A program made the position numbers and the translations under genes. From positions 5,339,496 through 5,403,495 of the forward strand of contig OZ036017.1 in the NCBI GenBank assembly GCA_964035015.1: a DNA stretch of 64,000 nt, in the 5' to 3' direction. How positions within the stretch are numbered: the first letter of the stretch is position 1; the number at the start of each line of letters is the position of its first letter. This DNA comes from Corallium rubrum. Lineage: Eukaryota > Cnidaria > Anthozoa > Scleralcyonacea > Coralliidae. This document shows, piece by piece, positions 9,691-17,992 of the stretch. The notes under the pieces were generated by a model. The model did not search any database. It saw only the letters and a program-made list of their open reading frames with translations, and was not told the DNA's origin.

Positions 9691-9730
9691 ATATATATAT
9701 ATATATATATATATATATATATATATATAA
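9665..9730. repeat. (TA)n tract 1
   Basis: Pure TA dinucleotide repeat abutting the palindromic ribozyme element that follows. Confidence 0.95.
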
Positions 9731-9753
9731 ATCAATAAAGACAAATAGTTTTG

Positions 9754-9805
9754 CTGTCACTACTCTGAGTTTCACGCACTTCGGCGATCGTCAGGCAACT
9801 GACAG
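9754..9805 (-). ncRNA. Hammerhead ribozyme, left arm of palindrome
   Basis: The reverse strand reads CTGACGA (9794-9788), a stem-loop CGC..GCG, then GAAAC (9773-9769) and ACTC-A-GAGT as a self-complementary helix III. Predicted cleavage is after GTA, between 9761 and 9760. Helix I pairs GTTGC with GTGAC, including wobbles. This is the type I hammerhead layout (helix I open). It is an exact mirror of the copy at 9911-9962. Confidence 0.8.
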
Positions 9806-9910
9806 ATTTACGTTTAATTATTCATGTATATACAGTTACAGGGGGTTTTAAATGCCGCCATGTAACTTAAAACCCCTGTAACTGTATATACATGAATAAT
9901 TAAACGTAAT

Positions 9911-9962
9911 CTGTCAGTTGCCTGACGATCGCCGAAGTGCGTGAAACTCAGAGTAGTGACAG
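9911..9962 (+). ncRNA. Hammerhead ribozyme, right arm of palindrome
   Basis: CTGACGA at 9922-9928, helix II CGC/GCG with a CGAAGT loop, GAAAC at 9943-9947, helix III ACTC-A-GAGT, and predicted cleavage after GTA at 9955. Helix I pairs GTTGC (9917-9921) with GTGAC (9956-9960). A U-U opposition sits at the base of helix II and recurs in sister copies. Near loop-less helix III fits ribozymes that work as dimers, as described in Penelope-like elements and animal retrozymes. Confidence 0.82.
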
Positions 9963-10067
9963 CAAAACTATTTGTCTTTATTGATTTATTCTCGCTCTAC
10001 TAGCAATAGTATCGAGTGCTCTTTTAGTTTTATGTCATCACTGTACCATCCGCAGTAATAATTATTG

Positions 10068-10121
10068 ATATATATATATATATATATATATATATATATA
10101 TATATATATATATATATATAA
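10068..10121. repeat. (TA)n tract 2
   Basis: TA repeat directly followed by AATAAATAAATAA and the end of the Penelope-like element. Confidence 0.95.
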
Positions 10122-10414
10122 ATAAATAAATAACGAACCTTCCCCCTCCGAAGTAAGAACTCATTTATAAATTAATCACAACAAACTTCAAAATACTATT
10201 TCACTTTATTAAACCAACGTTTCCGGGCAAGCCCCTTTTTCAAGGCAAAAGATCAAATCTCCAGCGTCTTTTATATGCCACACTAATTTCAAAATCCATT
10301 AACAAAAAATCTCTTAAATTCAAACCCCTTCGGATAAAGGTATCCAAGGTGTATGCCCAAAAGCCTTCTCTTTCGGTTGGATCATTTATATTAGTTTTAT
10401 CGATTATAAAACTA

Positions 10415-10695
10415 AAACTAAACTAATGTTATTTATACTGGATAGCTCTATCAGTTAATACCTAACTGTTCTTCCTAGAGGTCCAGTAAAGGCCATCCCT
10501 CATTGGTCCAGTGTTTCTACAGGAGGAAACCGGAGTACCCGGAGGAAACCTGCGATGTTGGTAGAGTCAAACTGGAAGCACTCTTCTCACATGCGGCCAA
10601 GGTGAAATTTTAATCGGAGAACTGCTGAGAGCAGGAATTGAACCCGGGTCGCAGAGGTGAAAGGCACGTGCACTAACCACTGTGCCACCAACACC
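10415..10695 (-). mobile_element. tRNA-derived SINE inserted in PLE-1
   Basis: On the minus strand the head reads TGGCACAGTGGTTAGTGC (A box) and CCCGGGTTCAATTCCTG (B box), followed by a body with TTTCCTCCGGGTACTCCGG and a TAA/TTTAG-rich tail. That is the anatomy of a tRNA-headed SINE. It sits between the GIY-YIG region and the terminal arm of PLE-1, so it landed after the retroelement. Target duplication is unclear. Confidence 0.75.
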
Positions 10696-10729
10696 CCAAT
10701 TATCATAACTTTCAAATCGATCAAACCCT

Positions 10730-15799: not shown

Positions 15800-15905
15800 T
15801 TTCACAAGTTGTTTACAACACTCACGTCCTTGTTGTATTGAATATACAATCACTCGCCTTCGGCTCGTGATTGTATATTCAATACAACACGGCCGCTCGT
15901 GTTGT
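15800..15905. repeat. Hairpin repeat
   Basis: TTGTATTGAATATACAATCAC and its complement flank CTCGCCTTCGGCTCG. GTTGTTTACAACAC and GTGTTGTAAACA extend the pairing. Short foldback repeat, no gene. Confidence 0.65.
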
Positions 15906-15934
15906 AAACATTACATATATATATATATATATAT

Positions 15935-16158
15935 CGCTCTATGGCCTTTAGGTCATATTGAGCGCTCTACAGGATGAGCCATTGCTGCTTACGCATTGTG
16001 CGCACGCTCACTGCTTGCAGTTTGAGCGCTATGGCATGGTTTTTATGTCCCACAATTTGTGAGGCACCAAAGGTGACTGTAAATAGCAGTTACCTTCATC
16101 CTGCTCATCAGCACCACACTGATGAGGCCCCAAAGGCCGAAACGGTACCGTCTGTAGT
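15935..16158 (+). mobile_element. (TA)n-bounded hammerhead element B
   Basis: About 224 bp between (TA)n at 15914-15934 and (TA)n at 16159-16188. It opens with CGCTCTATGGCC and contains TTGAGCGCTCTAC, and the ribozyme lies at its extreme 3' end, so cleavage would release a product starting 6 nt before the TA run. No ORF. Confidence 0.8.
16113..16157 (+). ncRNA. Hammerhead ribozyme with GUC cleavage site
   Basis: CTGATGA at 16119-16125, helix II GGCC-CCAAA-GGCC, GAAAC at 16139-16143, helix III ACGGT/ACCGT (loop-less 5-bp palindrome), and the canonical GTC with cleavage predicted after 16152. Helix I begins ACA/TGT. Every core position matches the consensus. Confidence 0.88.
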
Positions 16159-16185
16159 TATATATATATATATATATATATATAT

Positions 16186-16289
16186 ATTTTCGCTTACCTC
16201 AAAAGTCTGCTACAGGCTGTTTCATCTGCCTGAAGATTCTTTTTTAGATGAAACAGCCTGTAGCAGACTTTTGAGGTAAGCGAAAATCT
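16186..16289. repeat. Palindromic hammerhead element C, left part
   Basis: Palindrome with arms TTTTCGCTTACCTCAAAAG and complement, starting at the (TA)n end of element B. The hAT copy at 16295-17610 is inserted just beyond its right arm. Element sequence resumes after it (TTTGCTCTAAC, GAGCACTC, 17619-17679) up to the next (TA)n. Confidence 0.82.
16223..16268 (+). ncRNA. Hammerhead ribozyme in element C
   Basis: CTGAAGA at 16230-16236, helix II TCT/AGA closed by a T-rich loop with a basal U-U, GAAAC at 16250-16254, helix III ACAG-C-CTGT, predicted cleavage after GTA at 16262. Helix I pairs TCTGC (16225-16229) with GCAGA (16263-16267). All three helices differ from the other copies yet pair. 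Confidence 0.85.
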
Positions 16290-16294
16290 ATATT

Positions 16295-17610
16295 CAGTGG
16301 CGGATCAAGCTTGCGCGGGGCCCCTGGCACATAATTGGCTGATTGATGCCCCCCGCCCTGCCCCCCCCCCCCAAAAAAAAAAAATCCTCTGTGGACTAAA
16401 AGACAAAAAAAGAAAGACTAAAGAGGAAAGAGTCGGAGGAATTTTATAACCAAGATAGTAATATTTACAAACGATGTTTCTACAAAATGTTTTATGCAAA
16501 TGGCATTTTTCGGGCCTTTGCAGAAGCAAAATCGTTTGCTAGCTTATAGAAATCAAGCGAGCGTAAGATGTCCGATTCCATGCTGATCAGCGATAAAGCA
16601 GTTAAACGTTTCTGTCCCATCGTGCTACGCAAATCACTCTTTAAACGTTTTAGCTTCGAGAATGAGCGCTCCCCCGTACAGTTACTGACCAACATGGCAA
16701 GATAAATTCGCAAAGCAATTTCCACATTTGTGAAGGTTTCACTTAGCTCATTTTGTTTGAGATTGAGAAACATTAATAACTCAATGGACCTCTTGTCGTC
16801 CTCCTCTTGTGGAACTCTCATCTTCCGAACTTTTGCTCCAGGTTGCAATGGCTCGAAGAAATAGTAAATAAACTGGACGAGCTCGTTAGGGAAGGTTTCT
16901 TCCGAATCATCTGGATAGGCTTCAACAAGCTTTCGGGCAGCAGCCTTCACACCCTCGTCGCACATACTGCTAAGCTGAGAAAGGAAGCCAAATCTCTCAG
17001 AAACGGTTTTGTAACCAGCGATTCTTTGTTTCAGAGCAGCACAGACGTGGTCGATAATTGTAAAAAACACTTCCACACGAAATTTGACGCCGGCCTGCAA
17101 GACTGTATCCTCAGCTGCACCTTCGTCGCCATGAAAGATTCGTCGATTTCGTTTGCGAGTACGCCTTGAAGCATCTGGATACTCGCTATCGCCACACTTT
17201 TCTACACCTTTCTTCTCGTAATCATCAAATTTCTCTCGGAGTTGCTGAAATCCAAAACCTCCCACGTCTTTTATACATTCTTACATATAATTGCTTGACA
17301 GGTTTTATATATCAACTAAAACACGAACTTCAACTTCACGTCTAAGTTTTTGGTTAGTGGCTGCAAAAGTAGGGCATTACACAACAAAACCCTGATGTTA
17401 AGTAAACATTTCTAAGTGATAACTGATAACGTCATTAAATTAAAACGAGGGAGCCGTGCCCTGCTGGCCCTTTGTGCTTGCCCTTGCAGGCTGCAACATA
17501 GATGCGGTATATCCTTGAAAAAAAAAAAAGGTTTTGCGAAGCGCGGGGCCCCTCAAAAGCGCGGGGACCCTGGCACCTGCCCATACTGCCCTCCCCTTGA
17601 TCCGCCACTG
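16295..17610 (-). mobile_element. hAT transposon copy with 8-bp target duplication
   Basis: 15-bp perfect terminal inverted repeats (CAGTGGCGGATCAAG and CTTGATCCGCCACTG) with the 8-bp duplication TCTATATT at 16287-16294 and 17611-17618. Both marks are diagnostic for hAT. At 1316 bp it holds only the C-terminal part of a transposase, so it is a deletion derivative. It inserted into hammerhead element C. Confidence 0.93.
16492..17265 (-). pseudogene. hAT transposase C-terminal part (dimerisation domain)
   Basis: A 257-codon open frame on the minus strand, with no in-frame ATG at its start, so it continues an upstream part that is gone. The last third reads ALRIYLAMLVSNCTGERSFS, then LKRLKSDLRSTMGQKRLTAL and a MESDILR segment. 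This is the hAT-family C-terminal dimerisation domain as found in ZMYM1-like and related transposases. The catalytic DDE region and BED finger upstream are lost. The frame is intact to its stop, so the deletion is probably young. Confidence 0.85.
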
Positions 17611-17679
17611 TCTATATTTGCTCTAACTATATGTTATCGAGCACTCTTTGCGTTTCGTAGACCAAAACCCACACGTACA

Positions 17680-17820
17680 TATATATATATATATATACTG
17701 TATATATATATATATACAGTATATATATATATATATATATATATATATATATATATATATATATACTGTATATATATACAGTATATATATATATATATAT
17801 ATATATATATATATATATAT
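17680..17820. repeat. (TA)n tract with CTG/CAG interruptions
   Basis: Four interruptions (ACTGTA and TACAGTA) divide the TA run symmetrically at about 17697, 17717, 17766 and 17780, forming small TATA-ACTG/CAGT-TATA inverted pairs. Confidence 0.9.
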
Positions 17821-17992
17821 GAGCACGTGTTGGTAGAGCGAATATAGTACAGTTTAAGTGCGCTTACCTCAAAATGTTGAGTGTCGCAACTGTCAGTTTC
17901 ACGCGGGGCGGCGATCTTCAGGCAAGAAACCGAACGAGAAAAACAATCTGAATTCTTAAAAGTGTATAGACTGAATTGGCAGTGTTTGTGGT
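17821..17992 (-). mobile_element. (TA)n-bounded hammerhead element, copy A2
   Basis: Second copy of the element at 14694-14899, again with (TA)n on each side, almost identical but lacking about 30 bp next to the ribozyme. Same boundaries twice argue that the element ends really are at the TA runs. Confidence 0.85.
17881..17926 (-). ncRNA. Hammerhead ribozyme in copy A2
   Basis: Same core as at 14758: CTGAAGA (17921-17915), helix II CGC/GCG, GAAAC, helix III ACTG-A-CAGT, GTT cleavage site. Helix I keeps TTGC/GCGA; the deletion trims outer pairing. Confidence 0.83.

Follow-up and report, generated by a model that had tools for sequence, protein, structure and literature searches.

RESULTS

Hammerhead motifs and their families in the window

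A 64,000-nucleotide stretch of the Corallium rubrum genome (assembly GCA_964035015.1, contig OZ036017.1, positions 5,339,496 to 5,403,495 of the forward strand; hereafter the window) was analyzed together with the 474-Mb assembly of 312 contigs to which it belongs. The window holds seven hammerhead ribozyme (HHR) motifs in short elements next to (TA)n tracts. The elements fall into families A (9.7–10.1 kb), B (14.3–14.6 kb), C (14.7 and 17.9 kb), D (15.9–16.2 kb), and E (16.2–16.3 and 17.6 kb), of which A, B, C, and E apparently represent the 3′ ends of Penelope-like elements (PLEs) and D a retrozyme. Their features, in window positions, are as follows.

9727–10067, unstranded: family A insertion, a head-to-head palindrome of two truncated, apparently Penelope-like 3′ ends; left copy tail-less, right copy with tail (about 9990–10067), (TA)n on both sides
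9756–9799, minus: hammerhead of the left arm of A; helix I 5 bp, helix II 3 bp behind a U-U mismatch, helix III ACTC-A-GAGT
9917–9960, plus: hammerhead of the right arm of A
9994–10017, plus: tail hairpin of A, GCTC-apical stem-GAGT
14340–14612, unstranded: family B insertion, a palindrome with arms of 98 bp separated by 2 bp; tail at right (14538–14612)
14438–14495, plus: hammerhead of B; helix II 11 bp, helix III ACAAA/TTTGT, self-complementary
14382–14439, minus: mate arm of the B hammerhead, with an altered core (CCAGACGA in place of CTGACGA)
14543–14562, plus: tail hairpin of B
14696–14811, minus: family C copy; tail without its internal part, including half of the hairpin; 5′ side fused to a fragment of an unrelated high-copy repeat (14812–14900)
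14760–14803, minus: hammerhead of C
17832–17926, minus: second family C copy, hammerhead at 17884–17925; together with its surroundings a 98–99% duplicate of 14659–14911
15934–16158, plus: family D, a single putative retrozyme unit between (TA)n tracts; tandem elsewhere in the genome with a period of 231 bp
15936–15963, plus: first tail-type hairpin of D, with a second at 16006–16027
16116–16155, plus: hammerhead of D; helix II GGCC/GGCC, helix III ACGGTACCGT, helix I 3 bp in this copy
16180–16294, unstranded: family E insertion, a palindrome centred on a TCATCT inverted microhomology; right tail broken by a hAT element, resuming at 17611–17677
16225–16267, plus: hammerhead of E
16295–17610, minus: hAT-type element within the E tail, flanked on each side by TCTATATT; encodes a hAT dimerisation domain (E 4e-08)
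17611–17677, plus: remainder of the E tail, hairpin at 17620–17642

The core pattern CTGANGA-N4..34-GAAAC was found 12 times in the window against an expectation of 0.91. A descriptor demanding pairing in all three helices returned exactly seven sites, and these are the seven that the first-pass annotation had listed, position by position and strand by strand (9754−, 9911+, 14437+, 14758−, 16113+, 16223+, and 17881−). An initial, stricter descriptor, in which no mismatch was allowed at the start of helix II, matched B alone, or B and D with looser helix limits; the final version was relaxed after this result, and shuffled windows were scored with the identical relaxed version. Two hundred dinucleotide shuffles gave a mean of 0.02 sites and a maximum of 1, by which a chance origin of the seven motifs was ruled out. 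Five other HHR-like motifs failed the three-helix descriptor: 12610− and 39045−, which are among the 12 core matches, and 13947−, 32713−, and 34066+, which had not been listed before.

We also trained a covariance model on A2, F, H, and B3, four families with no copy in the window. It recovered six of the seven sites with E values of 8.9e-10 to 7.6e-08, and it also matched the broken mate arm of B (14382–14439, minus; E 3.5e-4). For D the E value was 0.069, slightly better than two background matches (0.2 and 0.36). Because A and B are related to the families used for the model, homology contributes to these matches besides structure. A scan with the Rfam hammerhead models, which the first-pass annotation had proposed as a check, gave no hit in the window at the gathering score; at E ≤ 10 only HH9 was reported, for D, with 17.4 bits against a cut-off of 52. 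Rfam hammerhead models expect a longer helix III. With the conserved core CTGANGA/GAAA, three pairing helices, and an opening at helix I, the motifs have the makeup of type I hammerheads, D being weakly recovered in the model test. These results indicate that the seven hammerheads are genuine sequence motifs of a known kind.

All seven motifs described earlier as ribozymes are thus present, but they reduce to five families because A and C are each counted twice. The motifs at 9754− and 9911+ are the arms of a single palindrome, identical over 82 bp, and those at 14758− and 17881− are near-identical copies lying in the 98–99% duplicated stretch. In all five window families helix III is self-complementary and closed by a loop of 0 or 1 nt, too short for a hairpin in a monomer, which suggests, as far as sequence can tell, that the RNAs may form dimers. 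Hammerheads usually have a base pair at the first position of helix II; here this position is an unpaired U-U in A, C, and E, and in 6 of the 10 families of a table aligned by hand. Those ten families were hand-picked from a longer list, leaving aside the families with a very short ACGT-type helix III (13947−, 32713−, and 34066+ in the window, and others) and a degenerate relative of B in L011. In this table 109 of 110 helix cells pair; both sides have changed at 9 of the 11 pair positions, and the other two are invariant. Helix I of D, which has 3 bp in the window copy, has 5 bp in other copies. The first-pass view of multiple type I hammerheads that differ in sequence, with helices that covary, in (TA)n-flanked elements was supported.

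Families A, B, C, and E have longer copies elsewhere in the genome

We next examined the matches of each family in the assembly. Family A had at least 42 (the best 40 of 407 candidates were scored), some lying ~2.36 kb apart in the same direction and others forming inverted pairs. Tandem A units 2.36 kb apart, the arrangement of a pseudo-long terminal repeat (pLTR), were found in C23, C32, C202, and C232. For E, two same-strand ends lie 2.4 kb apart on C1, judged by position only, and evidence for tandem copies is limited to A and E.

Between A copies, L045 contains a 705-aa open frame with FDIVEFYPSI, LYRDDGL, and, at the C terminus, CxC..CP..GKC and YIGVT..FKTRYRNH. More generally, the hammerhead ends of A, B, and E flank open reading frames (ORFs) in which FDxVxFYPSI, LYRDDGL, and a C-terminal YIGxT..FKxRxxNH..ELSK were read by eye. 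From these motifs we take the ORFs to encode a Penelope-like reverse transcriptase (RT) and a GIY-YIG endonuclease. The A and B proteins are 46% identical, and E and A 51–59%. Copies of C lie 193 bp (L065) and 188 bp (L070) downstream of the end of a related ORF. The RT region of A gave a sub-threshold RVT_1 match (E 4.8e-4) over 8–185 of 205 positions. A profile search against PDB gave no match, and none emerged on comparison to the window's other Penelope-like RT (10159–13750). These results suggest that A, B, C, and E are apparently the 3′ ends of autonomous PLEs; A, B, and E look short in the window because both joined copies are truncated close to the ribozyme. The first-pass annotation had interpreted the cluster as several families of small non-autonomous elements. 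This was not supported for A, B, and E, whose longer copies carry the RT-like/GIY-YIG-like ORF, nor for C, which lies downstream of a related ORF; D alone is small and non-autonomous. The PLEs and animal retrozymes that it had named as context proved apt, with four Penelope-like families and retrozyme D.

Nearly all sampled head-to-head insertions carry a tail on exactly one end

To locate the ends of the copies, family references spanning the ribozyme to the end of the tail were prepared, and copies were placed on them in 85 of 95 loci; L011 to L020, drawn by a query consisting mostly of an unrelated repeat, were left out, and the window copies enter the counts through overlapping loci. Loci had been selected for their resemblance to the window copies, and of each candidate list the best 40 were scored. 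Queries for the A, B, and E loci held at most 1 base of tail, and the C query a little more. Most ends fell within a few nucleotides of two reference points per family: 82 and 160 in A, 98 and 173 in B, 81 and 148 in C, and 66 and 126 in E. We infer that these two points, which bound the tail, are RT start sites, and call them start 1 and start 2.

Each left minus copy was then matched to the plus copy following it on the right (in family A, to the outermost one where several ran together), with a tolerance of 5 nt. Of 55 head-to-head inverted pairs obtained in this way, 50 had the tail on exactly one end and none had two tails. Two pairs duplicate other sites by both flanks (L052/L056 and L092/L093), leaving 53 sites, and all 48 classifiable ones have one tail. 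Of the 55 pairs, 54 have (TA)5 or more within 40 nt of at least one end, and 45 have it at this distance from both. Inverted ends with a tail on one of them, a Penelope-like trait, are thus found in A, B, C, and E. Outside the 55 pairs, family F (L087 and L089) also has a hammerhead, palindrome, and tail hairpin, and its two palindromes appeared one-tailed by eye.

The centres of 50 of the 55 pairs could be placed on parent sequence reaching 600 nt upstream. The two copies overlapped by 1–8 bp in 24, abutted in 1, and were separated by inserts of 1–40 nt in 14; the other 11 were mostly pairs with arms at the 600-nt limit. Thirty-nine rows, in which the arms differ in length and the tailed side is known, were informative. 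The longer arm carried the tail in 22 of them and the shorter in 17; when the arms differed by 5 nt or more (n = 32), the numbers were 17 and 15. Ten E loci share one centre, the TCATCT inverted microhomology. Four of them have the tail on the longer arm, if the window copy is read past the hAT element and the partial tail of L084 is counted, and six have it on the shorter arm, with that of L085 being partial.

Every arm in this junction set extends beyond the predicted hammerhead cut, and ribozyme cleavage was accordingly rejected as what sets the 5′ ends of the copies. Among the copies placed on the family references, a single E arm, in L088, begins at reference position 36, directly after the predicted cut. 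Since the inserts run across the ribozyme, the RNA that was copied would have been uncut there.

A hairpin is common to the Penelope-like tails and retrozyme D

The tails of A, B, C, and E and the beginning of the D unit share the arrangement GCTC-apical stem-T[TC]-GAGC or GAGT. The C hairpin was taken from L060, as the window C copies are without part of the tail. The apical stem has 5 bp in A, 3 in B, 4 in C, 4 in E, and 7 in D, and its sequence differs while pairing is kept. A hairpin descriptor gave five matches in the window, all within these elements and two of them in D; mononucleotide shuffles gave a mean of 0.16 and a maximum of 2. In tail folding against mononucleotide shuffles, A and B were unremarkable (z = −0.6 and −1.1), and C, E, and D reached −1.7, −1.6, and −2.3. 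The hairpins were misaligned by MAFFT, and pairs were therefore counted on a hand alignment of nine, in which the outermost pair is standard in seven and the other seven pair positions in all nine. The A, B, C, D1, and E hairpins had been identified as tails or ends before pairing was considered; for D2, F, G, and H, pairing was a condition of the descriptor that detected them, so that they add no independent evidence.

The tail-less end lies 4 (A), 5 (B), 2 (C), and 2 nt (E) upstream of the hairpin. In the window copy and at 3 of 4 fetched loci, TGTAGTTA forms the end of the retrozyme insert and (TA)n comes next, and in tandem D units the hairpin starts 6 nt after this point. In all five families, the hairpin is thus located 2–6 nt downstream of the tail-less end, and the retrozyme and Penelope-like inserts match in target, end position, and hairpin.

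D had at least 116 matches in the genome (the best 40 of 500 candidates were scored), in arrays with a 231-bp period that include a long one on C203. Judged by its small size, repeat structure, and type I HHR, D can be classed as a small non-autonomous 231-bp tandem retrozyme. Because D uses the same (TA)n target, start 1 position, and hairpin as the Penelope-like inserts, it was probably copied by Penelope-like enzymes, and we take its mobilisation in trans by this machinery as probable. A different arrangement was seen at L099 (C8:25525230–25526330), where a plus array meets a minus array 3′-to-3′, the orientation opposite to the head-to-head Penelope-like pattern; both outer ends are truncated at the same place inside the hammerhead, beside (TA)n.

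Other features of the window

A putative separate PLE occupies part of the region, and several further repeats were noted.

10159–13750, minus: separate Penelope-like element with RT motifs read by eye (RVT_1 E 0.044), inverted arms at 10297–10399/13510–13612, and degenerate HHR-like motifs close to its two outer ends; outer boundaries placed by eye
13925–13995, minus: HHR-like motif CTGAAGA..GAAAC with GACC/GGTC where helix II is expected
14812–14900 and about 17924–17990: part of an abundant repeat, joined to each of the two C copies; 1,836 first-look candidates came from a query containing it
15058–15742: large inverted repeat with arms of 176 nt (92%), flanked on both sides by 21- and 41-bp tandem repeats, no hammerhead
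21644–23463: 276-bp tandem array of 6.6 copies, the unit holding a tRNA-Ser-like stretch (anticodon AGA); single copies at 18117 (minus) and 18422 (plus)
32607–32886 and 33921–34200: inverted pair of 280 nt, 99% complementary and 1,034 nt apart, with outward HHR-like motifs at 32713 (minus) and 34066 (plus) that have a very short helix III; it looks like a further Penelope-type insertion

DISCUSSION

A model of two-ended insertion

The cluster is likely to be a nest of retroelement insertions in (TA)n, from four Penelope-like families and one retrozyme, made by two-ended target-primed reverse transcription with start sites on either side of a hairpin. The Penelope-like 3′ end is laid out as a hammerhead, 31–47 nt from its predicted cut to start 1, a tail of 60–78 nt with the hairpin, and start 2. 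The element endonuclease would open the (TA)n target, and both DNA ends would then prime reverse transcription of element RNA, one at start 1, giving the tail-less end, and the other at start 2, giving the tailed end. The two antisense cDNAs would be joined, often via a short microhomology. The expected product is a head-to-head inverted dimer with both 3′ ends outward and exactly one tail, and where both cDNAs stop near the ribozyme, a short palindrome such as those at 9.7, 14.4, and 16.2 kb would result. The occurrence of the tail on the longer arm in 22 rows and on the shorter in 17 is as expected from two separate cDNAs, and the split of four to six among the same-centre E loci fits this as well.

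Palindromes might instead arise by self-priming, in which one cDNA or antisense transcript folds back and templates a hairpin copy of itself; for bdelloid Penelope elements, such priming on an antisense template has been proposed (PMC3846280). The centres, often inverted microhomologies such as TCATCT/AGATGA and with a 1–8 bp overlap in 24 of 50, would suit it, as would the near-identity that the arms of one insertion often show. However, a fold-back copy cannot hold a tail that is absent from its template, yet the shorter arm is the tailed one in 17 of 39 rows, or 15 of 32 at a difference of 5 nt or more, and the narrow stop of the tail-less end is left unexplained. Fold-back of a single cDNA was therefore rejected as the sole source of the palindromes, unless the centres were later inverted, an event that could blur the longer-arm comparison, and we consider self-priming quite improbable. 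We give slightly more weight, while still regarding it as unlikely, to the view that the short palindromes are non-autonomous mobile elements, transcribed and re-inserted as units, which is close to the first-pass annotation. The ten E loci with one centre speak for it, as do three other loci that match the 102-bp E query of the window at 100% in different surroundings. Against it, many B and C palindromes have differing centres, long ORF-containing inverted dimers grade into short ones, and a unit should keep its tail on a constant side of the centre, whereas among the ten E loci it is on the longer arm in four and on the shorter in six.

Another possibility concerns the ribozymes themselves, namely that the motifs are hammerhead-like by descent and no longer active. 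The unpaired U-U with which helix II opens in A, C, and E, a helix III too short for a monomer, and Rfam scores below cut-off would be in keeping with such decay, and an Anolis hammerhead showed no cleavage in the absence of protein (PMC11167929). Against it, all but one of the 110 helix cells in the hand-picked families pair, and 9 of the 11 pair positions have changed on both sides; moreover, the title of Lunse et al. 2017 states that such small variants are cleaved as dimers. We regard inactivity as a minority possibility, and ribozyme activity as presumed.

Several observations weigh against two-ended insertion or against the assignment to PLEs. Four of the 55 pairs have one end at neither boundary (75, 84, 86, and 139), and the E pair of the window scores as having no tail at either end if the hAT element (16295–17610) is taken at face value, since it splits the tail, which resumes at 17611. 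At L099, the retrozyme array lacks a start 1 end, and its plus and minus parts meet by their 3′ ends. The one-tail rule gains nothing from 37 of the 147 placed rows, which do not form the outer end of any pair, and the sample is not random, because 19 regions were chosen for having copies close together. The sharing of one centre by ten E loci means that palindromes may move as units, with the tail side reset. Among ten long pairs (at least 500 nt of shared arm), the paired arms were mutually closest in only seven (L042, L043, L047, L048, L049 narrowly, L094, and L095); in L046, L050, and L054 they were not, although some of these latter three alignments may cross the junction, so that a single template per insertion is not settled. 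As for the proteins, the GIY-YIG assignment comes from motifs read by eye, with no Pfam or PDB match, and the B and E proteins gave no RVT_1 match. Finally, the Anolis study did not see the start site differ between strands (PMC11167929).

Relation to known elements

Ribozyme-bearing PLEs and retrozymes are already known, also in coral. With the Poseidon (PAc) protein of Anolis, each strand is both cleaved and extended, and synthesis begins at two internal sites between which the tail lies; hammerhead cleavage is not needed for insertion in vitro (PMC11167929), which agrees with the uncut template read from the inserts here. The elements described here resemble PAc in having an HHR upstream of two (here putative) RT starts bounding a tail, an AT-rich target, and an RT start in a stem loop; the likeness is one of description, and inverted insertions were not counted there, as far as the available part of that report goes (PMC11167929). 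In Adineta vaga, PLEs with a head-to-head inverted pLTR, a tail on one end, and junction palindromes have been described; their copy number is modest, the 31-bp tail is called optional, and self-priming is proposed (PMC3846280, in the sections available). By contrast, C. rubrum has dozens of insertions and a 60–78-nt tail, and the sampled pairs that could be classified all had a single tail.

Type I HHR retrozymes of Acropora millepora occur in many copies as tandem units of about 225 and 245 bp, and D, at 231 bp, resembles them in kind and size, by description rather than by sequence (PMC7229834, available portion). The same portion calls PLEs a strong candidate mobiliser of retrozymes on the grounds of shared HHRs, tandem copies, and co-occurrence, and does not mention a shared RT-start hairpin (PMC7229834). 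Minimal PLE hammerheads with a very short helix III in the pLTRs of PLEs were reported by Cervera and de la Pena 2014 and Lunse et al. 2017 (as summarised in the accessible part of PMC7761336); the very short helix III is common to those and to the motifs found here, 6 of 10 families of which have the U-U. Neither a strict one-tail rule nor a hairpin shared by retrozymes and PLEs was found in the literature covered, and as this coverage was limited, it is weak evidence that the one-tail regularity and the common hairpin are new.

Implications for insertion and mobilisation

A further, tentative extension of the model is that insertion is obligatorily two-ended and asymmetric. Two RNAs held together by helix III might start on either side of the hairpin, and retrozymes might parasitise the machinery via the same hairpin and start site, much as short interspersed elements share the 3′ end of long interspersed elements. 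The one-tail pattern is a countable prediction that separates two-ended priming from self-priming, and the shared hairpin is a short RNA suited to the type of in vitro assay published for the Anolis protein. How PLE insertion is completed and what mobilises animal retrozymes are both open questions in the accessible parts of earlier work (PMC3846280, PMC11167929, and PMC7229834), and the copies in the C. rubrum genome hint at how such elements insert.

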